From an uncultured Oscillospiraceae bacterium (lineage in GTDB: Bacteria; Bacillota; Clostridia; Oscillospirales; Oscillospiraceae), in assembly GCA_944382965.1 (NCBI GenBank), contig CALWOA010000001.1, forward strand, positions 1 through 64,000: DNA of 64,000 nt, read 5' to 3'. The notes below the pieces were generated by a model. That model saw only the letters and a list, made by a program, of their open reading frames with translations. It did no database searches and had not been told where the DNA came from. Position 1 is the stretch's first letter. Each line of letters begins with the position of its first letter. This document shows, piece by piece, positions 7,002 through 35,215 of this stretch. The position numbers and the translations under genes were made by a program.

Positions 7002-7868
7002 GTGGAGAAAGAAAAACAACGGCGTGGAGGATTTGCAAAAATCTGGATTTTCTGGGTCTTTCTCCTGCCGGATTTGTTGGGAGCGCTGATCTTTGCGTTG
7101 GTGCCCATGCTCCGGGTGCTGCTTGGCTCTTTCCAAAGTGCGGTAGGGAGCCGATGGGTTGGATTTCAGAATTACGCTACCGTACTGTGCAACGGGGCGT
7201 TTCATCTAGCACTCGGCAATACCGCACGGTTTACCCTGATATGCATACCCATTCTACTGGTGCTTTCTCTGGGACTGGCTCTTGGGCTGCGGGCACTCCC
7301 TGGTATTGGCAGCACGTTGCGCAGCGCATTTCTCATGCCCATGGCGGTTCCTGCGGCTTCCGTGGTACTGGTATGGAAGGTGCTGTTTCACAAACAGGGG
7401 CTGCTGAATGGAATCCTGCTATCCATATTCGGCACCAGGATTGATTGGATGAACTCCGATGCCTCCTTTTGGATGCTGGTGATTAGCTATTTGTGGCGGA
7501 ATCTGGGGTATACCACAGTTTTGTGGACGGCGGGGCTGGCCGCAATTCCCGAGGGCATTTATGAAGCAGCTAAGGTGGATGGTGCCGCGGGCTGGCAGGT
7601 ACTGCGCTACATCACCCTTCCTAGTCTCAAAGGTACTGGGTATACCATTGCCGTATTGTCCTTGCTCAATTCCTTCAAGGTCTTTCGGGAAGCCTGGCTG
7701 GTGGCGGGGGATTACCCTCAGCAGAGCATGTATCTGATGCAGCATCTTTACAACAACTGGTTCCGGGAGCTGGATTTTGACAAAATCGCCGCTGCTTCGG
7801 TGATGACTTCCGTGGTGGTGTTTGTGCTCATTGCCCTTCTGGGAAAAGCCTGGGACAAAAAGGAGTAG
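7002..7868 (+). CDS. Sugar-type ABC transporter permease (MalF/UgpA class)
   Basis: Integral-membrane subunit of a carbohydrate-uptake (CUT1-type) importer. The 288-residue product has about six membrane segments. The cytoplasmic EAA loop reads EAAKVDGAAGWQVLRY, the docking site for the ATPase. Translation probably starts at GTG 7002, behind GGAGGA. It is the first gene of a tightly packed operon; the second permease follows after 3 bases. No ATPase gene is present in the operon, so it would need one encoded elsewhere, as MsmX-type shared ATPases do in Firmicutes. Confidence 0.88.
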   Translation: MEKEKQRRGGFAKIWIFWVFLLPDLLGALIFALVPMLRVLLGSFQSAVGSRWVGFQNYATVLCNGAFHLALGNTARFTLICIPILLVLSLGLALGLRALPGIGSTLRSAFLMPMAVPAASVVLVWKVLFHKQGLLNGILLSIFGTRIDWMNSDASFWMLVISYLWRNLGYTTVLWTAGLAAIPEGIYEAAKVDGAAGWQVLRYITLPSLKGTGYTIAVLSLLNSFKVFREAWLVAGDYPQQSMYLMQHLYNNWFRELDFDKIAAASVMTSVVVFVLIALLGKAWDKKE

Positions 7869-7871
7869 CAT

Positions 7872-8720
7872 ATGAACAAAGTGCAGAAAATTCTGTTGGG
7901 TGCCGTTTTGGTCGGGCTGGCTCTGATGCTGTGCTTTCCCATCTGGTTCGGGATCACCGGGGCGTTCTCGTCCCAATGGGAGTTGGAGGCAAATCTGGCC
8001 CCGGTGTTCACCGTAGGAGAGAAAATGGCTGCCTGGTCCTTCTTGCCCCAGGCGCCGACCCTGGAGCATTTGGTGCAGGTTTTGATGGACGCTCCGGAAT
8101 TTTTTACCATGTTCTGGAATTCCGTGATCATCACACTGGGGATTCTGATTGGGCAGCTGCTGCTTGGTGTACCTGCTGCCTGGGCATTGGCCAGACTTCC
8201 TTTCCCGGGAAAGGGGAAAATCCTCAGTGGCTACATTGTGCTGATGCTGATGCCCTTTCAGGTATTGATGTATCCGCAGTATCTGGTGCTGCGGGATTTT
8301 GGGCTGCTGGATACCTTGGGAGCAGTGATTCTCCCGGCGGTGTTTTCTACCTTCCCGGTATTCCTGCTTCACCGCTTTTTCTTGGCCATTCCCGGAGAAA
8401 TTCTGGAAGCAGCCCGGATAGATGGGGCGGGAGAATTGCGGATTTTCTGGCAAATTGGGATGCCTTTGGGGTCACCGGGAATTATGGCAGTAGGAATTTT
8501 ATCGTTCCTGGATTCCTGGAATTTGATTGAGCAGCCTATGACGTACTTAAAAACCAAGTCCCTGTGGCCGCTGTCGCTGTTCCTTCCGCAGATTCAGCTG
8601 GAAGATATCGGCATGGGATTTGCGGCGGCATTGTTGATGCTGATTCCGGCGCTTTTGCTGTTTATCAGTGGTCAGGAATACCTGGAACAGGGAATTGCGT
8701 TGTCGGGAGGAAAAGACTGA
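7872..8720 (+). CDS. Sugar-type ABC transporter permease (MalG/UgpE class)
   Basis: Partner permease, 282 residues with about six membrane segments. The EAA loop is EAARIDGAGELRIFWQ. The segment LMLMPFQVLMYPQYLVL is closely matched by a decayed copy at 34.7-35.1 kb. It starts 3 bases after the first permease and ends one base before the adaptor gene, which implies a single transcript. The substrate is unknown; the divergent GH13 enzyme makes an alpha-glucoside plausible. Confidence 0.88.
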   Translation: MNKVQKILLGAVLVGLALMLCFPIWFGITGAFSSQWELEANLAPVFTVGEKMAAWSFLPQAPTLEHLVQVLMDAPEFFTMFWNSVIITLGILIGQLLLGVPAAWALARLPFPGKGKILSGYIVLMLMPFQVLMYPQYLVLRDFGLLDTLGAVILPAVFSTFPVFLLHRFFLAIPGEILEAARIDGAGELRIFWQIGMPLGSPGIMAVGILSFLDSWNLIEQPMTYLKTKSLWPLSLFLPQIQLEDIGMGFAAALLMLIPALLLFISGQEYLEQGIALSGGKD

Positions 8721-8721
8721 T

Positions 8722-10386
8722 ATGGATTGGAAAATAGGAAAACAAAGAATTTGGAAGCTGGCGGGGGCATTCTTTGCCGCAATGGTGGTCTTTACTATTT
8801 TGTCCCGGGCGGCCTATCAACATGGAATTGCCGTGGTTACGACCCAGGCACCAGCTGGCGGAACCATTTCCCATCAGGTGATCCTGAACGGAAAAACGGT
8901 GCAGAACCAGGAGCAGGCGGTAACCACCGAAGCGGGATTACGGATTGCTGGGGTTTCTATTAACGAAGGCCAGCAGGTCAAGAAGGGGGAGGTGCTGTTT
9001 ACCTTGGACTTGGAGTATCTGGAAGAGGAAATTCTGAACCAGAAACAGGAGATGCAGAAACAGCAGCTGTCCATTCAGGACGCTTGGAGTCAAGAAGCAG
9101 CCAGCCGGGAACAGCGGGAGAACCAACAGGCCCAGGCGGAGGAAAACTACAACAGTGCTGTCTCCAAAGCCCAGAGCGATTTTGACCGGGCGGGAGAGGA
9201 ACTGTCCCAGGCGGAGCAGGCATTGGAGGATTACTACAACGGAACCGGAGCAGATCAGGATCAGGAAGAGAAACTGACTGCCGCCTGTGAGCAGGCCCAG
9301 GCAGATTACGAAGCGGCCCAAAACGCTGTGGAGCAGCTTCAGCAGGAGATGACCGAACGGATTCAGCAGGCACTGGATCAGGCAGCTGCCCAACCTCCCG
9401 ACCCTACGGAAGAAGACCAGAGCAGCGGCCTGACCCCGGAGGAAATCCAAACCATCACCCAGCAGATTCAGGCAGAGTATACCCCAAAACTATCCCAGGC
9501 CCAGCTACAGGTATCCCAGGCAAAACAAATCTGGGATACAGCGAAGGCGGAGCTGGATGCGTTTCTTCAAAATGGGGGTACGGACGAAGGTGAGATTACG
9601 GAACAGGAACTGCTGGAAGCCGTAGAGCGTGCCCAAGCGGCCTATGATGAAGCTCTGGCAGCGCTGGAAGATGCCGAGCGGGTTTATGGCCAAGCCATCA
9701 ATACCGCCAAACTCCCCACTGCTGTCAGCCATACTGCTCAGATTGGTCAGATTTCCTACGACCAGATGGCCCGAAAGTTGGAAAAGTTGGAAGCGCTGCG
9801 GGAAGCGGAGGGGAAAATCTGCGCTCCGGTGGATGGCATTGTCACGGAAAGCCGGGTCCAGACGGGAGAAAAAACCACCGATACCACGGCGGTTCTGTTG
9901 GCGGATCTGAGCCAGGGGTGCAAATTCTCCGGAACCATCACCCAGGAACAGAGCAAGTACATTGGCGTGGGAGATAAGGTCATACTCCGGGCAAGCAGCT
10001 CGGGGAAGGTATACAAAGACCTGCCGGTGACCACCCTTTCCATGGAGGAGGAAACCGGGCAACTGACGGTACAGCTGCCGGCGGGAACCCTGCCTTTGGG
10101 GGCCAGCGCAGAGATGAATTTTACCCGGAAGTCCCAGCCCTATTCCTGCTGTGTGCCCCTGTCGGCGCTGCATCTGGACGAGCGGAATATGCCCTATGTG
10201 CTGGTGGTGGAGCCGGTGGAAACGGTACTGGGTACCCAAATGCAGGCAAGAAAAGTCTCGGTAACAGTGCTGGAACAGAATGAGACCACTGCGGCCCTGG
10301 CAGAGGGAGCGGTACATAGGGAACAAAAAATCATTGTGGGTGCCGACCGGGCAGTGGACGACGGAAGCCGGGTTCGGGTGGGCTGA
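8722..10386 (+). CDS. HlyD/MacA-like membrane-fusion adaptor protein
   Basis: The 554-residue product has an N-terminal membrane anchor (about 11-28), a lipoyl-like half motif (AGVSINEGQQVKKGEVLF), a very long Gln/Glu/Ala-rich coiled coil (roughly residues 95-340), the second lipoyl half (ICAPVDGIVTESRVQTGEK) and a beta-barrel region. This is the architecture of the adaptors that work with MacB-like or RND exporters. In a Gram-positive cell it would project from the membrane into the wall. The start at 8722 has GGGAGGA ahead of it; the reading from 8668 overlaps the permease and was rejected. The next gene begins 1 base later and encodes a small MacB-like membrane protein, the likely partner. 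Confidence 0.8.
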   Translation: MDWKIGKQRIWKLAGAFFAAMVVFTILSRAAYQHGIAVVTTQAPAGGTISHQVILNGKTVQNQEQAVTTEAGLRIAGVSINEGQQVKKGEVLFTLDLEYLEEEILNQKQEMQKQQLSIQDAWSQEAASREQRENQQAQAEENYNSAVSKAQSDFDRAGEELSQAEQALEDYYNGTGADQDQEEKLTAACEQAQADYEAAQNAVEQLQQEMTERIQQALDQAAAQPPDPTEEDQSSGLTPEEIQTITQQIQAEYTPKLSQAQLQVSQAKQIWDTAKAELDAFLQNGGTDEGEITEQELLEAVERAQAAYDEALAALEDAERVYGQAINTAKLPTAVSHTAQIGQISYDQMARKLEKLEALREAEGKICAPVDGIVTESRVQTGEKTTDTTAVLLADLSQGCKFSGTITQEQSKYIGVGDKVILRASSSGKVYKDLPVTTLSMEEETGQLTVQLPAGTLPLGASAEMNFTRKSQPYSCCVPLSALHLDERNMPYVLVVEPVETVLGTQMQARKVSVTVLEQNETTAALAEGAVHREQKIIVGADRAVDDGSRVRVG

Positions 10387-10387
10387 T

Positions 10388-11401
10388 ATGGACCGGAAAA
10401 AGAAAATTCGACTGGCGGTTTTGGCAGCGGCGGCGCTGCTGTATCTGGGAAGTTTCTGGGCCTGGAAAAAGACGCAGCCTTTTGAAAATCGGGTGCCCTT
10501 GGTACTGTCCAAACCGGTAAACGCTGACGAGGCGCAACGGATCTGGGATGCAGAACGGGAGGAAGAAGCGCCGGTGGGCTTCTGCTTCTGGGGAGAAGTC
10601 GGGGAGCAGATGGTTTCCTGCCGGGAAACCGGCGCTTCCGCTCGGGTGAACCGGATTGCCCTTTGGGGGAATCCGGAACTATTGGGGGCGGGAAGCCTGG
10701 CCTGGCGGGACGGATGCCTGATAGACCGGGAGACGGCCCAGACGTTATTCGGCACCGACCGCTGTGAAAATCAGACTTTGACTGCCGGGGAGAAGCGCTT
10801 GCCTGTGGTGGGAATCCGCTCGGACATTCGCCCTGCCATGGTATCCCGGGCGGAAGGAAACCAAGATCATCTGAACCGATGTGTTCTGGCAGTTCCCTCA
10901 GCCCAGGGAAAGGTGCAGGGGGAGGCGTTTCTGATGCGCTGGGGATTGGAGGGAACGGTGCTGGACTTTTATCCCTTTCAGGCCTTGTGCCGGAATCTTC
11001 TGCTGCTGTTTCCAGGGGTACTGCTGGGGAGTCTGGGACTTTCCTTAGAAAAAGAGAGAAAGAATCTGACCTTGGAAGGCATTCGCTCCCGGAAACAGCT
11101 GCGGTTACTGGGCAAATCTCTCCTGGGTATCGCTATTTTGCTGGGAAGTCTTTGGCTGCTGGGCAGACAGGTGACAGTGCCCGGGGATATGATTCCCTCC
11201 CGGTGGTCGGACTTTTCCTTCTGGAGCCGGTGGTGGGAAGCACAGCGGGAAAACTTCCAGCGGATTCTGGCCACCTCCTTGGGAAGCGAGTGGTTGCAAA
11301 TGCAGGCAAATATGGTAAAATCAATGGTGTGTTCCACAGCGTCAGCCATGCTGGCCCTGTGGGCGGTGAGGAGGGAAAACCATGCGGATACTGCTGATTG
11401 A
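10388..11401 (+). CDS. Small MacB/FtsX-like membrane protein with extracellular domain
   Basis: The 337-residue product has a membrane segment at about 8-25 and an extracytoplasmic domain to about residue 195. The run GAGSLAWRDGCLIDRETAQ, then LFG and LPVVGI, resembles the periplasmic core of MacB permeases. Three more hydrophobic segments follow, near 203-222, 236-257 and 303-325. That is the topology of an FtsX-type permease, but it is shorter than usual and no adjacent ATPase exists. The last 20 bases overlap the response-regulator gene, so the two are translationally coupled. It may be a signalling or non-canonical transport component rather than an exporter. Family assignment is moderate. 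Confidence 0.55.
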   Translation: MDRKKKIRLAVLAAAALLYLGSFWAWKKTQPFENRVPLVLSKPVNADEAQRIWDAEREEEAPVGFCFWGEVGEQMVSCRETGASARVNRIALWGNPELLGAGSLAWRDGCLIDRETAQTLFGTDRCENQTLTAGEKRLPVVGIRSDIRPAMVSRAEGNQDHLNRCVLAVPSAQGKVQGEAFLMRWGLEGTVLDFYPFQALCRNLLLLFPGVLLGSLGLSLEKERKNLTLEGIRSRKQLRLLGKSLLGIAILLGSLWLLGRQVTVPGDMIPSRWSDFSFWSRWWEAQRENFQRILATSLGSEWLQMQANMVKSMVCSTASAMLALWAVRRENHADTAD

Positions 11402-12062
11402 GGATGACGAAAGCTTAGGGCAGACCCTGTCCTATCAGCTGCAGCAGGCAGGTTTCGCAGTTGACGTGAGCCGGGATGGAGAAGAAGGCCTGATGTTTGC
11501 CCGGGAGGGACTGCATGACCTGATCCTCCTGGACCGGATGCTGCCGGGACTGGATGGCATGGAGGTTCTGGAAAAGCTGCGCCGGGAGGGAATTTCCACG
11601 CCGGTGATCTTCCTGACGGCTCTGGGGCAGGTTTCGGACCGAACCCAGGGTCTCAACAATGGTGCAGATGACTACCTGGTCAAGCCCTTCGCCTTTGAGG
11701 AACTGCTGGCCCGGATTCGCTGCGTACTTCGTCGTCCGGCGGTGCTGCAACAGGAGCAGATTCTGCGCTATGGAGATGTTGCCTATGACCCCCGATCCCT
11801 GACTTTGAGCCGGGGAGAGAACAGCACCGCTTTATCCAAGCGCTTGGGGGATTTGTTGGAACTGTTCCTGCGAAATCCCGGCCAGACCTTGCCCCGAGAG
11901 ACCATCCTCCTGCGGGTATGGGGCATGGACTCCGATGTGGAGGATGGCAATTTGGACAACTATACCTATTTTCTCCGCCGCAGTCTGCGTAAGGTGGGCA
12001 GCCGCTTACAGCTGGCGACGGTCCGGGGGGTAGGGTATCGATTGGAGGATCGCCATGATTAA
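11382..12062 (+). CDS. OmpR-family response regulator
   Basis: The 226-residue DNA-binding regulator has a receiver domain at 1-115 with acidic residues DD at 8-9, phospho-acceptor D51 in LILLDRMLPG, the conserved threonine in FLTALG and lysine in LVKPFAF. A winged-helix output domain follows, ending in TVRGVGYRLE. It overlaps the preceding gene by 20 bases and the kinase gene by 8, a standard two-component pair inside the operon. Candidate binding sites are the TTAGAG direct repeats at 6939 and 13326. Confidence 0.95.
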   Translation: MRILLIEDDESLGQTLSYQLQQAGFAVDVSRDGEEGLMFAREGLHDLILLDRMLPGLDGMEVLEKLRREGISTPVIFLTALGQVSDRTQGLNNGADDYLVKPFAFEELLARIRCVLRRPAVLQQEQILRYGDVAYDPRSLTLSRGENSTALSKRLGDLLELFLRNPGQTLPRETILLRVWGMDSDVEDGNLDNYTYFLRRSLRKVGSRLQLATVRGVGYRLEDRHD

Positions 12063-13329
12063 CCATCTTCGTTGGAAACTGACGGCGTTCAACACCTTCA
12101 TTACCGGGGCTATTTTGGTGGGATTGACTTTGCTGTGCCTGTTTGTTTCGGAGAAGGACACCCGGAATCAGGCTTTTCAGAATTTTACCGGCACCCTGGG
12201 AACGGCTTCTGCCTATCTGGGGAGCCAAAACCAAATTTCTGTCACCTGGCTGCGGCAGATGGAAAGTACGGGGCGGGTCTGCATTTCCATTCGGGATGGA
12301 GACACGCCCCTGTTTTCCATGGGGTTGTCTGAGAAAGGGCAGCGGTTGGAGGCAGATTACCAACTGGCCAGGGAGCGTGCCCAGACGGACTACCGCTTGA
12401 GCACCCGCACCGGAGGCAGCTGTACATTTTCCATGGAAGGTAAGGCAGGGCAGCATTATTTTGCCGGTGTAGCGCTGATTTCCAAGGGAGACCGGGCGCT
12501 GGAACTGATTTTCCTGTACCCACTGGCGGATCTGGAGCAAGGAATCCTTCGCCAGCGGATGGTGGTGGGCATTGGCTTAGGGGTAGGGATGGTGCTGCTG
12601 TGGGTATTTTCCTGGTGCTTTACGGGCAAAATGCTTCGCCCCATTCAGGAAAGCCAGCAGCGGCAGACAAGATTCACCGCAGCCGCATCCCACGAATTGC
12701 GAACGCCTTTGGCGGCGATTTTGTCGGCGGCCTCTGCTATGGAGGGAGCCGACCCCACCCAGCAGGCTCGGTTTTCGGACATGATACGCCGGGAAGGCCA
12801 GCGGATGACCCGGCTGATCGGGGATATGCTGACCCTGACCAGTGCCGACAACCAGAACTGGGACATCCGCCCGGAGCCGGTGGAGCCGGATATGCTTTTG
12901 CTGGAAGTATACGAAACCTATCTGCCATTGTCTAAGGAAAGAGGGCTGAAACTGTCCCTGTCTTTGCCGGAGGAATTGGGGCAGAAGGGCAGCTGGGATC
13001 GGCAGCGGATTGTGCAGGTACTGTCCATTTTGCTGGACAATGCCATGAGCTATACCCCTGCGCCCGGGGATATCCGGGTGGAACTGCTCTGGGGACGGGG
13101 ATGTGCCCGGATTCGGGTCAGCGATACCGGTCCCGGTGTTCCTGACCAGGAAAAGGCCCGGATTTTTCAGCGTTTCCACCGGGGAGAGAAAGCCCGCTCC
13201 GACCGGGGGCATTTTGGCTTGGGGTTGAGCATCGCCTGGGAAATTGTGAAGTGCCATCGGGGGAAACTCTGGGTGGAGGATGCCCCGGGGGGCGGGGCGG
13301 CATTTGTGCTGGAACTTCCTGTCAGTTAG
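12055..13329 (+). CDS. Sensor histidine kinase
   Basis: The 424-residue membrane kinase has membrane segments at about 11-32 and 169-189 that flank a roughly 135-residue extracellular sensor region. The H-box is ASHELRTPLAAI with phospho-acceptor H213. The ATPase domain contains the N-box LLDNAMSYTP, DTGPGVP and the glycine-rich HFGLGLSIAWE. It overlaps the regulator gene by 8 bases. Its stop codon (13327-13329) lies within the TTAGAG repeat that precedes the lipoprotein gene, so kinase coding and the next promoter share sequence. The signal is unknown; the extracellular lipoprotein downstream is a candidate partner. Confidence 0.94.
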   Translation: MINHLRWKLTAFNTFITGAILVGLTLLCLFVSEKDTRNQAFQNFTGTLGTASAYLGSQNQISVTWLRQMESTGRVCISIRDGDTPLFSMGLSEKGQRLEADYQLARERAQTDYRLSTRTGGSCTFSMEGKAGQHYFAGVALISKGDRALELIFLYPLADLEQGILRQRMVVGIGLGVGMVLLWVFSWCFTGKMLRPIQESQQRQTRFTAAASHELRTPLAAILSAASAMEGADPTQQARFSDMIRREGQRMTRLIGDMLTLTSADNQNWDIRPEPVEPDMLLLEVYETYLPLSKERGLKLSLSLPEELGQKGSWDRQRIVQVLSILLDNAMSYTPAPGDIRVELLWGRGCARIRVSDTGPGVPDQEKARIFQRFHRGEKARSDRGHFGLGLSIAWEIVKCHRGKLWVEDAPGGGAAFVLELPVS

Positions 13330-13358
13330 AGACCTTTTAGAGATTGAGGGAGTATACT
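13326..13358 (+). promoter_or_regulatory. Phased direct repeat and -10 box ahead of the lipoprotein gene
   Basis: TTAGAG at 13326-13331 and 13337-13342, 11 bases apart, then TATACT at 13353-13358, 16 bases after the start of the second copy. The repeat, its AC-starting 5-base spacer and the distance to the -10 box all match the element at 6939-6971. The -10 is near consensus and no -35 box is present, as expected for an activator-dependent promoter. Confidence 0.65.
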
Positions 13359-13389
13359 CCAGTCATCTTCACAAAGGAGTGATTGTTTT

Positions 13390-15705
13390 ATGAAGCAATA
13401 TAAACGCTGGATTGCCCTGGCGCTGTCCCTTTTTGGGGTGCTGGGCTGTCTTGCCGGCTGCGGAGCCGGAGATTCCACCATCACCCAGGCCACCCCGGGA
13501 ACGGACGCCGGGCAGACCGAATCTGCGCCCAATGGCGGCGAAACCACTGCCGCAGCCATGGGCCGGTATGTGGAGCAGACGGTGCAGCTGCCGGAGTGCA
13601 GTTATCCAATCGATATGGTGATGCTCTCCACCGGGCAGCTCCGGGTGGCAGTGAAAGACAACAATTATGAGGCGCTGATCTGCACTGCCGGGGAAACCCT
13701 GGGGCAGTGGCAGAGCGTGGAGAACCTGCCCGAGGACATTACTGCCAGCGGACGTGTGGAATCTTTGGCATTGTCTGCTGACGGCAGCATCTTCTGCTCC
13801 ACCGTACAGGAAATGGAAGATGGCACCTACCAGTACCACTTCTGGATTGCAGATCCTGCGGGAACCTGTCGGGAGATTCCCATTACCTATCCGGATCTGG
13901 ACAATACTGCGGGATTGTTGGTGTCATCCTGTGATTTTACGGCCAGCGGACGGCTGTTTGTGGATCTCAATATCCGGGACGTGCGAGAAATCAATCTGGA
14001 AACCGGAGAACTCAGTGAAAACCTCAATGACGCAGGCGTCTCTACCATGGCTTTGGAGTGCGCCGGAGAGAATCTTTACCTGTTGGGATGGAGTGGAGCT
14101 TACGTTTGGAACGAGGACAATGGGCTGCAGCCGCTGTCCGGCGTTCTGGAAGAGCAGGTTGCCGCTTCTCTGAAAGCCACGGAAGGCTATTCCCCCAAGG
14201 TGACCTTCTGGGAAAATTCCCAAGGCTACCTGATGTTTACCACCCATGAGGGGCTTTATAGCTATGTTCCCGACGGCAGCGTTACCGAGGAACTGGTGAG
14301 CGGCACCGGAACTTCCCTGGCAGACCCGGTCTTTTTCCCCACAGCCATGACTGGGGGAACGGATGACAGTTTCTATGTGCTGGGAAGGCAGAACGGACAG
14401 CCTGCCTTGTACCATTATGTATACGACCCCAATGTACCCACCGAGCCCAGTACCCATCTGACGGTGTACAGCCTGTATCCCCAGGAGACCCTAATGCAGC
14501 TGATTTCTCAGTATCAGAAAGCCCATCCGGAAACCGCTGTAACCCTGGAAGTGGGCCTGACGGGAGAGGACGGCGTGACCGAATCCGATGCCATCCGCAC
14601 CCTGAACACCCAAATTCTGGCAGGAGACGGCCCGGACCTGATCTGCCTGGATGGATTCAACCTGAATACCTATCAGGAAAAGGGCCTGCTGGCGGATCTG
14701 ACCCAGATTCTGGATCAGGGCGAGAAAACGTTGGAGCAGGTAACCAAGTGCTATGCTGATGAGGGCAAAGTATACATGGTGCCCACAGCCTTTGCCATTC
14801 CGGTGGTGTATGGCCCCGGAGAGATTGTCTCCCAGATTCAGGATCTGGATTCCCTGGTGACGGCGGCTGGCCTGGCAAAGGACGCCAATCCCGAATCCAA
14901 CACTGTATTCAGTGGATTCATCCCCACTTATTTGGCGGATAAATTTTATGATTGCTGCTCTGCATCCTGGTTCCGGGAAGATGGAACCTTGGATGGGCAG
15001 AAACTAGAGCAGTTCTACGCTGCTATGCAGGAGCTCTATGCCATGGACAGCGAGTTCCGGCAGAACTTGCAGCAGATGATGGAGAGTGAAGGACGCTCTC
15101 TGGAGGATGTGGAATATATTCCCGGCGAGTATACCGGATTGGGCGGTGCCATCACGATTTTCTCCACCAATTCCTGCCTGGATGCGGGAACTTTGGAGAG
15201 TATGGATAATTGGTCCTATGCCCTGGTCGGGGACGAGAGTTTTGAAGCGTATCAAGTTTTGCCCCTCAACGTCCAGGCATCCAATGTGTTTTTGCCCCGG
15301 CGGGTTATGGGCATTCTGAACAGCAGCACCCAGCAGGAGGCGGCAGCGCAGTTCCTGAGCTTCCTTTTGAGTGAGGAAGCCCAGAGCAGCGCCCAGGGCT
15401 TCGGATTCCCGGTAAATCAGGCGGCCTTTGATCGACAAATCACCCAGGACCGTACCTTGGATACGTCGCTTGCCATGAGTGATGAAGACGGAAATATGGA
15501 TACATTCTATCTTCGCTACCCCGACGCAGAACTGCGGCAGCAGTTTAAGACCTGGGTCGACCAGCTGACCACCCCTGCCTCCACCGACCGGATCATCCGC
15601 AGCATGGTCGTCGAGCAGGCGGCTGCCTGCCTCAATGGAGAGCTTACCCCCCAGCAGGCGTCTGATGCAGCGTTGCAGGCACTGAACCTGTACCTGACGG
15701 AGTAA
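13390..15705 (+). CDS. Two-part lipoprotein: N-terminal propeller-like domain and C-terminal solute-binding domain
   Basis: The 771-residue exported lipoprotein has a signal peptide ending at the lipobox LAGC (C24). After a low-complexity linker, residues about 55-350 contain repeated beta-strand segments with alternating hydrophobics (SLALSADGSIFCS, TMALECAGENLYLL, TGGTDDSFYVLGR), reading like a beta-propeller. From about 355 onward (LTVYSLYPQETLMQLISQYQ) it matches family 1 extracellular sugar-binding proteins, with DLICLDG and a C-terminal FLLSEEAQ. Ordinary binding proteins lack the first half. It has its own repeat-bearing promoter and is followed after 4 bases by the carboxypeptidase. 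It probably delivers substrate to the 7.0 kb permeases, informs the kinase, or does both. Confidence 0.75.
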   Translation: MKQYKRWIALALSLFGVLGCLAGCGAGDSTITQATPGTDAGQTESAPNGGETTAAAMGRYVEQTVQLPECSYPIDMVMLSTGQLRVAVKDNNYEALICTAGETLGQWQSVENLPEDITASGRVESLALSADGSIFCSTVQEMEDGTYQYHFWIADPAGTCREIPITYPDLDNTAGLLVSSCDFTASGRLFVDLNIRDVREINLETGELSENLNDAGVSTMALECAGENLYLLGWSGAYVWNEDNGLQPLSGVLEEQVAASLKATEGYSPKVTFWENSQGYLMFTTHEGLYSYVPDGSVTEELVSGTGTSLADPVFFPTAMTGGTDDSFYVLGRQNGQPALYHYVYDPNVPTEPSTHLTVYSLYPQETLMQLISQYQKAHPETAVTLEVGLTGEDGVTESDAIRTLNTQILAGDGPDLICLDGFNLNTYQEKGLLADLTQILDQGEKTLEQVTKCYADEGKVYMVPTAFAIPVVYGPGEIVSQIQDLDSLVTAAGLAKDANPESNTVFSGFIPTYLADKFYDCCSASWFREDGTLDGQKLEQFYAAMQELYAMDSEFRQNLQQMMESEGRSLEDVEYIPGEYTGLGGAITIFSTNSCLDAGTLESMDNWSYALVGDESFEAYQVLPLNVQASNVFLPRRVMGILNSSTQQEAAAQFLSFLLSEEAQSSAQGFGFPVNQAAFDRQITQDRTLDTSLAMSDEDGNMDTFYLRYPDAELRQQFKTWVDQLTTPASTDRIIRSMVVEQAAACLNGELTPQQASDAALQALNLYLTE

Positions 15706-15709
15706 GGCT

Positions 15710-16456
15710 ATGGACGTTTCCCGGGAATACGAAACCGGGGCAGAGGTTTTCATACCATCTCTTGCGGAAAAGTATGCCGTAAAACAGCGCAAAAGAAGAA
15801 AGCGGGCCTTTTCCAGGAAAATCCTACCGATACTTGTGGCCATTTGTATTCTTTTGGCACTGGGCCTGAGCGGCTTGCTTTCCGGTTTCCAGCACACTGC
15901 CTCGTTGGATCGGGGATGGAATCTGATCCTGGTGAACTATGAATATCGGCTGCCCCGGAACTATACGGTAGAACTGACACAGCTATATAACGGTGAACGG
16001 GTGGACAGCCGGATGTATCCGGCGCTTCAGGAAATGTTCGACGACATGCGTGCTGAGGGGGTATATCCCATTGTGGCCTCCGGCTACCGTTCGGAGGAGG
16101 AACAGCAGATGCTGCTGGAAGAAAAGATACAGCAGTATCGTGACCAGGGGTATTCCCTTAAAAAGGCCAGGGAAGCGGCGCTGCTCCGGGTGGCAGAGCC
16201 GGGAACCAGCGAACATCAGCTGGGACTGGCTGTGGATATTAACCAGGAGGGCACTCGCTCCACAGCCAGCCAGGTATATACCTGGCTGGAGGAACACGCC
16301 TGGGAATACGGCTTTATCCTCCGGTATCCGGAAGAAAAATCCCACATCACCGGCATCACCAACGAACCTTGGCACTACCGCTATGTGGGACAGACTGCCG
16401 CGGAAGAAATCAACCAGCGGGGCATTACCCTGGAAGAATACCTGGATGCAGCATAA
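15710..16456 (+). CDS. VanY-like D-alanyl-D-alanine carboxypeptidase (M15B)
   Basis: Zinc carboxypeptidase that trims the terminal D-Ala from peptidoglycan stem peptides. The 248-residue product has a basic N-terminus and one membrane anchor (about 38-60), and its domain lies outside the cell. Zinc ligands are visible as H169 and D176 in TSEHQLGLAVDI, and H222 in EPWHYRYVG; SGYRSEEEQ at 124-132 is the family's substrate-side motif. It starts 4 bases after the lipoprotein gene and ends the operon at a hairpin. Its place next to a two-component system recalls van-type clusters, but no vanH/A/X homologue is present. Confidence 0.9.
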   Translation: MDVSREYETGAEVFIPSLAEKYAVKQRKRRKRAFSRKILPILVAICILLALGLSGLLSGFQHTASLDRGWNLILVNYEYRLPRNYTVELTQLYNGERVDSRMYPALQEMFDDMRAEGVYPIVASGYRSEEEQQMLLEEKIQQYRDQGYSLKKAREAALLRVAEPGTSEHQLGLAVDINQEGTRSTASQVYTWLEEHAWEYGFILRYPEEKSHITGITNEPWHYRYVGQTAAEEINQRGITLEEYLDAA

Positions 16457-16463
16457 AAACACC

Positions 16464-16494
16464 AAAGCGCCTGTTCTTTAAGAACAGGCGCTTT
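16464..16494. terminator. Terminator between converging operons
   Basis: Fourteen-base perfect stem AAAGCGCCTGTTCT / AGAACAGGCGCTTT with a 3-base loop. The T run is better on the minus strand (end of the DUF4956 operon), but the hairpin sits at the end of both operons. Confidence 0.8.
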
Positions 16495-16535
16495 GATCAT
16501 CTCATTGCAGAGACTGCGGTGTCGCATAAACTTGA

Positions 16536-23843: not shown

Positions 23844-24734
23844 ATGGACACGATTCGAAACGGACGGCTGTCTGACAAGCAGGTCGGCGTGCTGCTGATT
23901 CTGCCGGGACTGGCGATCTTTGCGGCCATTATTCTGTATCCGTTTGTGGATGCAGTGCTGATGAGCTTCACTGACCGTTCCATGATTTATCCCGATTACA
24001 AGTGGGTGCAGTTTGAAAATTATCAGAAGGTTTTCAAGGACCCCTACTTTACCAAAACTCTGACCACCACGGTATTGTTTGTGCTGGGTGCTACGGTGCT
24101 TCCGTATGTGCTGGGCATGTTCTGGGCGGTGGTGCTGAACCAGGGATTCCGTGGCTCGGAATTTCTGCGGGGCGTAACGCTGGTCAACTGGATTATCCCC
24201 GGCACCGCCATCGGCTTTCTGTGGAGTTGGATTTTCAACGGCCAATATGGCATTCTGAACAACGTACTTAAGGCCCTGGGTATTCTGGAAACCGGCGTTC
24301 CCTGGCTGGGGCAGACCAACACGGCGCTGCTGTGCGTGATCATTGCCCGTACCTGGCAGATGCTGCCTTGGTATATGGCCTTCCTGCTGGGCGGACTGCA
24401 AAGCGTTTCTCTGGAACAGGTGGAGGCAGCCCACATTGACGGAGCCAACAACCTGCAGACCTTCTTCCGGGTGATCCTGCCGGGAATGAAGCAGACGGCT
24501 ATGCTGATTTTCGTGCTGGGCCTCATCGGCAACCTGCAGCACTTTGACCTTCCCTGGACCATGGCCCAGGGCGGCCCGGCCCGGGCCACCACCACTTTGT
24601 CCATTGAGGTTTACACCACCGCTTTCAAGAACTGGAACATGGGCAAGGCGGCTACCGTTGGCACCATCTGGGCAGTGATTCTGGCCTGCTTCAGTGCCAT
24701 CTATCTGAAGCTGAACAACGACGAAAACGCCTAA
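23844..24734 (+). CDS. Sugar ABC transporter permease (MalF class)
   Basis: The 296-residue membrane subunit of a CUT1-type importer has six predicted membrane segments. It begins VLLILPGLAIFAAIILYPFV after a short cytoplasmic lead. The cytoplasmic coupling loop, after SLEQVEAAHIDGANN, is the EAA motif. GGGAGG precedes the start. The gap of about 140 bases from the binding-protein gene contains two hairpins; the second permease follows after 12 bases. Confidence 0.92.
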   Translation: MDTIRNGRLSDKQVGVLLILPGLAIFAAIILYPFVDAVLMSFTDRSMIYPDYKWVQFENYQKVFKDPYFTKTLTTTVLFVLGATVLPYVLGMFWAVVLNQGFRGSEFLRGVTLVNWIIPGTAIGFLWSWIFNGQYGILNNVLKALGILETGVPWLGQTNTALLCVIIARTWQMLPWYMAFLLGGLQSVSLEQVEAAHIDGANNLQTFFRVILPGMKQTAMLIFVLGLIGNLQHFDLPWTMAQGGPARATTTLSIEVYTTAFKNWNMGKAATVGTIWAVILACFSAIYLKLNNDENA

Positions 24735-24746
24735 GGAGGGAAGAAG

Positions 24747-25577
24747 ATGTTTCAAAAAACGCTGGCATTCCGGATTTTCTTCTGGGCAAGCCTGCTGCTG
24801 ATTGGAGGATTTGTATTTCTGCCCCTGCTGTGGATGATCAACACTGCTTTGAAACCCACGGATTTGACCTTCAGCAGCTATTTCTTTACCGGACCGCTGA
24901 CCCTGGACAATATTATCCACATCGTCACTGACCCCAAGATTATGACCTACCTGAAAAACAGCCTTTGGGTATCCTTCGGCTCCAGTTTTATGGCCACGCT
25001 GGTGGCGGCACTGGCTGGTTACAGCTTTTCCAAATTCCGCTATCGGGGCAGAAAATTCGTCATGGGCATGTTCATGATGAGTCAGGCTTTTCCCCAGGCC
25101 ATTTTGCTGCTGGCGATTTATGCCATGATGAACAAGGCAGGACTTCTGGGCAGCTATTGGGCGCTGATTATCAGCTATGTGGTGTTCACTCTGCCGGTGG
25201 GCACCTGGACTCTGAAAAGTTACTTTGACCAGATTCCGGACTCCCTGATGGAAAGTGCCAAGCTGGACGGAGCGGGCAACTTCCGAATCATGCTTCAAAT
25301 CATTTTCCCCCTGGCGGTCCCCGGCATGATTTCCATTGCCATTTATGGCTTCGTGTGGAGTTGGAACGATCTGCTCTACTCCATGACTTTGGTGACGGAT
25401 ACCGCCCGCAGGACGCTGGCCTCCGGCTTGGTGATGACTTTCCTGGGCGAAGCTTCCACCAACTGGGGCTACATGATGGCGGCATCTATTGTGGCGGCGA
25501 TTCCGGTTACGGTTATTTTCGTGTTCCTGCAGCGATACTTTATCCAGGGCTTAACCTCTGGCGCGGTAAAAGGATAA
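24747..25577 (+). CDS. Sugar ABC transporter permease (MalG class)
   Basis: The 276-residue partner permease has six membrane segments and the EAA loop MESAKLDGAGNFRIMLQIIF. AAGGAGG precedes the start. Last gene of the operon, followed by a strong terminator. Like the 7.0 kb pair it depends on an ATPase encoded elsewhere. Confidence 0.92.
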   Translation: MFQKTLAFRIFFWASLLLIGGFVFLPLLWMINTALKPTDLTFSSYFFTGPLTLDNIIHIVTDPKIMTYLKNSLWVSFGSSFMATLVAALAGYSFSKFRYRGRKFVMGMFMMSQAFPQAILLLAIYAMMNKAGLLGSYWALIISYVVFTLPVGTWTLKSYFDQIPDSLMESAKLDGAGNFRIMLQIIFPLAVPGMISIAIYGFVWSWNDLLYSMTLVTDTARRTLASGLVMTFLGEASTNWGYMMAASIVAAIPVTVIFVFLQRYFIQGLTSGAVKG

Positions 25578-34636: not shown

Positions 34637-35215
34637 TTGCCTGTCCAGAAACGATTTCATGAACAGCAAGGTCAGTCGGATCACCGCAGGGGCAGTTCCA
34701 AAGAAAAAGCAGTTTCAGCTGCCTGGGCCTTTGACAAGTTTGACTTTCCGGGGAAGAAGGCTTTGTTTGCTGGGTATATGATTCTGATGCTGCTGCCCTT
34801 TCAGGTGACTATGGTGTCCAGCTATCTGGTGCTGGATCAGCTGGGGCTGATGAATACGGTGCTGGCCATCATTTTACCAGGCGCGGTATCTACGTTCCCG
34901 GTGTTTTTAATGACCCGGTTTTTCAGCGCAATCCCCAATGCTTTGACGGAGGCGGCTGCTTTGGATGGTGCGGCTCCGCTGCAAATTTTCCTTCACCTGG
35001 GACTTCCCCTGGGTGCGCCGGGCATCCTTTCAGCGGTGGTGCTGGGCTTTATCGAATACTGGAATGCTTTTGTCTTCGGGAAAACCCGGGAATATGGCAG
35101 TTTCGCCATGGTTTGCGGCAGTGAATGCCGCCTTCGGATTGGGGAAATGGGATTCCTGACATTGGAAGAAGGAAAGCTGCATCGTTTTGATAAAATAACG
35201 GGACAGCGCAAGTAA
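34637..35215 (+). pseudogene. Decayed sugar ABC permease (MalG class)
   Basis: Residues from about 34730 (SAAWAFDKFDFPGKKALFAG) to about 35070 (GFIEYWNAF) match the middle of the permease at 7872-8720, including the membrane segment LMLLPFQVTMVSSYLVL and the EAA loop EAAALDGAAPLQIFLHLGLP. The N-terminal membrane segments are missing and the C-terminus diverges into unrelated sequence. No ribosome-binding site. This is a remnant of a second copy of the 7.0 kb-type permease. Confidence 0.75.

Follow-up and report, generated by a model that had tools for sequence, protein, structure and literature searches.

A Conserved Gene Set in Clostridia Combines MalFG-Type Importer Permeases With a MacB-Fold Protein That Lacks an ATPase

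Introduction

What is the function of a gene set in which importer permeases, an exporter-type adaptor, a MacB-like membrane protein, a two-component system, a binding lipoprotein, and a peptidoglycan carboxypeptidase stand side by side and no ATPase is encoded? This question is raised by a stretch of 64,000 nucleotides from an uncultured gut bacterium of the Oscillospiraceae (assembly GCA_944382965.1, contig CALWOA010000001.1, positions 1–64,000), which is referred to here as the window. An earlier note, made from the sequence alone, considered the set a signalling complex that uses transporter parts, or a cell-wall stress module, rather than a simple importer, and drew part of this view from the missing importer ATPase.

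Results

Layout of the Locus

All eight genes of the kinds named in the earlier note are present on the forward strand, as judged from open reading frames (ORFs), Pfam matches, and, for the MacB-like protein, its predicted fold. The set begins with a MalF-like importer permease (P1, 7002–7868; Pfam BPD_transp_1, 5.8e-11) and a MalG-like one (P2, 7872–8720; BPD_transp_1, 4.7e-10), carrying the EAA coupling loops EAAKVDGA and EAARIDGA, respectively. They are followed by an adaptor of the HlyD/MacA type (8722–10386), which matches HlyD_3, stays below the cut-off of RND_mfp, and has one N-terminal membrane helix in a crude count, and by G4 (10388–11401), a membrane protein for which AF2 modelling and fold comparison predict a MacB/YknZ fold, which possesses neither an ATPase nor an ATPase-docking motif and displays RWSDFSFW in an outer loop. 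An OmpR-family response regulator (RR, 11382–12062; Response_reg and Trans_reg_C), a sensor histidine kinase (HK, 12055–13329; Pfam histidine kinase domains), a two-domain binding lipoprotein (SBP, 13390–15705) with SBP_bac_1 at residues 365–665 and a lipobox recognized by eye, and a VanY/M15-type D,D-carboxypeptidase (15710–16456; Pfam VanY, 2.1e-35) complete the set. Six of the seven gene junctions are overlaps or gaps of 1–5 bases, and HK and SBP are separated by 60 bases. A long terminator-like hairpin lies at 16461–16497, between VanY and the facing gene.

The decayed permease pointed out earlier at 34.7 kb is indeed a remnant of a second P2-type gene (34709–35071, forward strand), with 53% identity to P2 residues 100–217; other module genes are not clearly recognizable as relics near it. 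The window also encodes an ordinary MalFG-type permease pair (23844–25577) with 25–28% identity to P1 and P2.

Conservation of the Gene Set

A search with G4 identified 48 loci in named genomes. Counts refer to a core set of 51 distinct G4 loci after removal of copies, with L010–L014 (copies of L018 and L020–L023) and L017 (an ATPase locus) set aside beforehand; L035, in which 2.1 kb of contig precede G4, was placed in the module class by hand. HlyD accompanies G4 in all 51 loci, P2 in 50, P1 in 48, SBP in 43, RR in 37, and HK in 33. Throughout the 80 module loci, core clade and deeper branches alike, HlyD and G4 are encoded on the same strand with gaps of −107 to +134 bases (median 0), a linkage far beyond chance. 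When the gene order is compared between genomes, as the earlier note had proposed, the linkage proves to be conserved in the 51 core loci, but the positions of SBP and of RR-HK vary. Within the genus the order is P1-P2-HlyD-G4-RR-HK-SBP, and in many Lachnospiraceae HK-RR is divergent from SBP-P1-P2-HlyD-G4; the set has thus been reshuffled yet kept together.

The gene set is therefore a real conserved unit. A chance mixture or the decay of unrelated operons, for which the decayed P2 copy might be quoted, can practically be dismissed, as the linkage persists in 80 loci although G4 averages only 20% identity across the 42 of the 51 core sequences covered by alignment A2 (a second alignment, A1, covers 44). 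Among relatives the occurrence of G4 is patchy, with matches in 8 of 99 genomes, its own included. Its closest named relative (81%) comes from an Oscillospiraceae metagenome genome, and an evenly drawn phylum-wide sample of 398 genomes, which includes the earlier ones, yielded four matches at 1e-8, full-length in two, again counting its own.

Gene fusions of the importer with HlyD or G4 were not found among the profile hits. In L101 (7029–12437) the module is duplicated in tandem, the second HlyD having an in-frame stop and its G4 being open. In L020 a permease pair close to P1 and P2 (13116–14889; about 300 bits) is not accompanied by HlyD or G4, which suggests that such permeases are able to function without them.

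ATPase Genes Near the Module

A pattern scan of the module span of the window plus 2 kb detected no ABC ATPase signature, in agreement with the earlier statement that neither an importer nor an exporter ATPase is present. ATPases were detected in other loci by patterns and by a profile built from 25 ORFs of this analysis. By pattern, a complete ABC signature occurs within 1.5 kb of G4 in none of the 51 core loci and an ABC signature within 2 kb of the module span in three (L031, L051, and L060); by profile, an ATPase gene lies within 3.5 kb of G4 in two (L051 and L060). HlyD and the MacB-like protein thus regularly lack an ATPase, a point that the earlier note had proposed to check, and neither of the findings it had named as fatal to its view, i.e., an ATPase regularly adjacent or an unconserved order with the genes in unrelated operons, was encountered. 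In L051 a MalK-type ATPase (TOBE_2) is encoded immediately after P2, and in L060 an exporter half-transporter ABC gene begins 147 bases after G4.

It might be supposed that HlyD and G4, whose folds are those of exporter parts, constitute an outward pump driven by the importer ATPase together with P1 and P2. The binding lipoprotein and the MalFG-type permeases, however, are importer parts, and an exporter-type ATPase is situated beside the module in only one of 51 loci (L060), so that such a role in efflux or detoxification is very improbable.

Directly 3′ of G4 in L060, ABC exporter genes occupy 10462–14152, the first combining ABC_membrane and ABC_tran. By looser labels, ABC-like ORFs are found further out in L031, L035, L057, L063, and L132; the one in L063 has 232 residues, adjoins an 11-helix ORF, and lies beyond an RR-HK pair. 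In L043 (11308–20587), L046 (11424–17632), and L050 (11585–20968), the module is followed by two or three permeases of 1,018–1,086 residues in tandem, with no ATPase between them; one of these (L043, 11308–14382) matches FtsX and, weakly, MacB_PCD.

Beyond the core set, a G4 profile was searched against a class sample of 391 genomes, and 68 stretches were examined (about 69 of about 111 listed places, some 38 weaker places being left out). P1/P2 are present and ATPases absent in 29 of these stretches, and the other 39 lack P1/P2, of which 29 have an ATPase and 10 have neither. P1/P2 and ATPase neighbours are mutually exclusive in the 68 stretches (Fisher p 5e-11, not corrected for kinship). 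As a rule, then, the exporter-type half of the module occurs without an ATPase.

In L125, L137, L151, L156, and L168, an HlyD protein of 800–905 residues adjoins a MacB-like protein of 391–396 residues that has no docking motif, and the examined flanks contain no ATPase or MalFG permeases. These five loci perhaps constitute a second, separate group of ATPase-less MacB proteins.

G4 Has a Predicted MacB Fold and No Docking Motif

G4 itself has no match in Pfam or NCBIfam. AF2 predicts a protein of four helices (pLDDT 93.3), and structure comparison assigns the model to the MacB/YknZ/LolE fold, consisting of TM1, an outer core domain, and TM2–TM4. Full-length TM-scores against MacB structures are low (0.31–0.37 among the top hits listed, normalized to the length of the query), and below the MacB/LolE/YknZ group the search lists many unrelated weak matches. 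MacB_PCD is matched at E 0.01 by 13 of 42 G4 relatives and the FtsX Pfam domain by none of the 42. The label “MacB-like” is upheld by the MacB_PCD matches of the relatives together with the modelled fold.

In MacB-type permeases that are linked to an ATPase, the docking motif of the loop between TM2 and TM3 is found in 29 of 29 cases and a C-terminal motif in 28 of 29, whereas each is absent from all 80 module G4 proteins; permeases with neither P1/P2 nor an ATPase as neighbour show each motif in 6 of 12 cases. The docking pattern follows the MacB/FtsX consensus and was written after two examples had been inspected. A quick tree places the 80 module G4 proteins on one side of one branch, with a support of 93 that is below the starred level and with several long branches. 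The tree together with the loss of the motifs points to a single origin, at which ATPase and docking parts would have been lost together. Without these parts, G4 should be unable to operate as an independent ATP-driven pump.

The docking parts also bear on whether the operon encodes two separate machines, a plain importer alongside a MacAB-type pump relying on an unlinked YknY/MacB-type ATPase. Shared ATPases are common for importers, and MacB-type proteins exist that carry the docking motif and have no ATPase in the examined stretch, two of them in the genome of the window itself (L105 and L106). As both motifs are missing in every module G4 and kept in the ATPase-linked MacB proteins, and as G4 is linked to P1/P2, such a pair of independent machines seems clearly unlikely.

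The RWSDFSFW-type motif of the outer loop is a feature of the core clade, a WSDF motif being absent in 27 of 29 module loci outside it. No RWSDFSFW-like motif occurs in any other ORF of window positions 1–24,000 or of L010–L065. An unusual length of HlyD, which might have indicated a wall-spanning tube, was considered and rejected, as median lengths are alike in 80 module loci (576.5 residues) and 26 ATPase-linked pumps (578.5).

Importer Permeases and a Shared ATPase

Within the core clade, the EAA loop is kept in 47 of 47 P1 and 49 of 50 P2 sequences, the exception being a fragment of 228 residues. In deeper branches it is kept in 27 of 28 P2 but in only 17 of 27 P1 sequences, the other ten reading EVSRLEGA, EAALIDGV, or EVAxLExA, so that the contact with the ATPase may differ there. 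In L102, L103, L129–L132, and L150, which make up one deeper branch, the P1 loop has drifted to the EVAxLExA type and P2 retains its EAA loop.

The genome of the window has 13 places that match P2, itself and the remnant included, which amounts to about ten such permeases, and one ATPase with an OB_MalK domain was found, a number that may be an undercount as the genome is 90.8% complete. This ATPase matches B. subtilis MsmX at 9e-114, and its best solved relative is 7x0q. In the available part of PMC7658222, four residues were tested as a signature of the multitask ATPase MsmX; by hand count on an alignment, three of them (D77, R104, and E110) are kept here and K154 is replaced by Q. Many importers of B. 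subtilis use MsmX, according to the accessible portion of PMC11466899, and an OB_MalK ATPase is encoded in each of 15 chosen carrier genomes.

With EAA loops kept, a MalK-type ATPase encoded in the genome, and MsmX users known from B. subtilis, it is ordinary for an importer to lack an ATPase of its own. Two BPD_transp_1 permeases with EAA loops, an SBP_bac_1 lipoprotein, and a MalK/MsmX-type ATPase in the genome are the traits of MalFG-type (CUT1) importers, and judging from these sequences the genome-encoded ATPase most likely powers uptake through P1 and P2. The missing importer ATPase therefore loses its weight as an argument against an importer, all the more as about ten permeases face one MalK-type ATPase and L051 encodes one after P2. 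It is the MacB half without ATPase that is the new point.

Binding Protein, Two-Component System, and Neighbours

The double-domain lipoprotein of the earlier note is borne out: residues 57–361 of SBP are mostly beta and the remainder is a solute-binding domain. Propeller-like Pfam matches in some relatives (PQQ_2 at E 0.1 in 9 of 39) suggest that the N-terminal domain is perhaps a propeller. The solute-binding part of SBP is nearest in fold to sugar-binding proteins, with CbpC first, and the best 50 matches listed are all binding proteins or fusions thereof.

VanY is found near the module in 3 of 51 loci and is a local passenger; the proposed cell-wall stress module, which leaned on VanY, loses its footing with it. 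When the window HK is compared with 15 chosen carrier genomes, its best match is the module-adjacent kinase in 14 of them; L060, whose examined stretch encodes no kinase, is the one exception. Genome G486, also a carrier, has a second kinase that comes close, with 286 bits against 299 for the kinase of the module. On these matches HK is orthologous across carriers.

Of 112 neighbouring ORFs listed (200 residues or longer, no more than two on each side), 94 were scanned at 1e-5, some of these ORF calls possibly being wrong frames. No common catabolic theme was found among the 94, the commonest Pfam family occurring in five and alpha-amylase in three, and neighbour genes were abandoned as a guide to the substrate. 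This is odd for a sugar importer; it argues against a plain feeding system, in favour of sensing or scavenging.

Accordingly, the chief task of SBP, the permeases, HlyD, and G4 might be to inform the kinase of a wall or glycan signal, in the manner of BceAB and BceS, with transport being secondary or only setting the signal. The orthologous and often linked kinase, the OmpR type of its regulator, and a neighbourhood devoid of a catabolic theme would fit. However, the core clade keeps its EAA loops, and several loci have no RR-HK nearby. Of the 51 core loci, 14 have no recognized RR and 18 no recognized HK, many of these misses being contig ends, but in L031, L043, L046, L050, L051, and L060 the pair was not found despite 8.8–10 kb examined per side, binding-protein genes still occupying the far upstream end of the stretch in L043, L046, L050, and L060. 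On deeper branches, RR and HK are not labelled in the examined stretches of L101–L104, L120–L124, L126, L127, and L129–L132. A mainly sensory complex is thus rather unlikely, and a signalling role alongside import is possible.

Discussion

Each half of the module resembles known systems. MsmX-dependent importers of Firmicutes, such as AraNPQ-MsmX, likewise consist of an SBP_bac_1-type lipoprotein and two MalFG-type permeases with EAA loops and have no ATPase of their own, a MalK-type ATPase being encoded elsewhere in the genome. In comparison, the module adds HlyD, a MacB-fold protein, an extra, mostly beta SBP domain, and an OmpR-type two-component system, and it has no common catabolic genes nearby. 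As in the MacAB-type pumps of Gram-positive bacteria, YknWXYZ and SpMacAB, an adaptor of the HlyD/MacA type adjoins a four-helix permease of predicted MacB fold. Unlike MacAB/YknXYZ systems, the module has, as a rule, no fused or adjacent ATPase gene, lacks the docking motifs in all 80 cases, displays the outer-loop motif in its core clade, and is linked to importer permeases instead; MacB homologues in the accessible part of the review PMC5985334 work with an ATPase. With BceAB-BceRS the module shares a permease of type VII fold beside a two-component system, but BceB comprises ten helices and is served by a dedicated ATPase, BceA (PMC11466899, in the part available), whereas G4 has four helices and no ATPase and is joined by an importer and an adaptor. 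Although both halves are of known kinds, their combination may be new, as a literature search, which covered few subscription papers and gives a weak negative, did not find an earlier description.

The earlier note was thus right in treating the mixture as a unit, which is conserved, mostly accompanied by its own two-component system, and ATPase-less in its exporter half; its case against an importer, drawn from the missing importer ATPase, is not supported. We give about even chances to a composite, MsmX-powered importer that carries a MacA/MacB-derived outer assembly under the control of its own two-component system. P1 and P2 would form a MalFG-type channel, supplied by the two-domain lipoprotein SBP with an oligosaccharide-like substrate and driven inward by the shared MsmX/UgpC-type ATPase of the cell, which is encoded elsewhere. 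HlyD and G4 would form the assembly at the outer face, G4 being seated on the importer in a physical complex, its RWSDFSFW loop serving as the contact point. Via a ring of HlyD, it might collect, gate, or pass on the substrate, or report its state to the kinase, and RR-HK would control the gene set. The lack of a catabolic theme leaves room for sensing within this composite importer. Further points that weigh against the composite are the altered P1 loops of deeper branches, the core loci without RR-HK, the exporter-type ABC gene after G4 in L060, the permease pair of L020, the lack of gene fusions, the replaced K154, the possible undercount of ATPases, and the low TM-scores of G4.

A more specific version, which we put forward only tentatively and consider doubtful as a whole, is that the MalK-driven cycle of the importer also moves the MacA/MacB-derived outer assembly. 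The MacB half would have lost its ATPase once, early in this lineage of Clostridia, and become a passive mechanical or gating subunit that keeps contact via the conserved outer loop.

Carriers with strain names, among them Anaerotruncus massiliensis AT3 and Cuneatibacter sp. NSJ-177, make the module experimentally testable. If the proposed composite importer is real, the MacB fold would be usable without an ATP drive of its own, and pump-type adaptors may serve uptake or sensing in bacteria that have no outer membrane.
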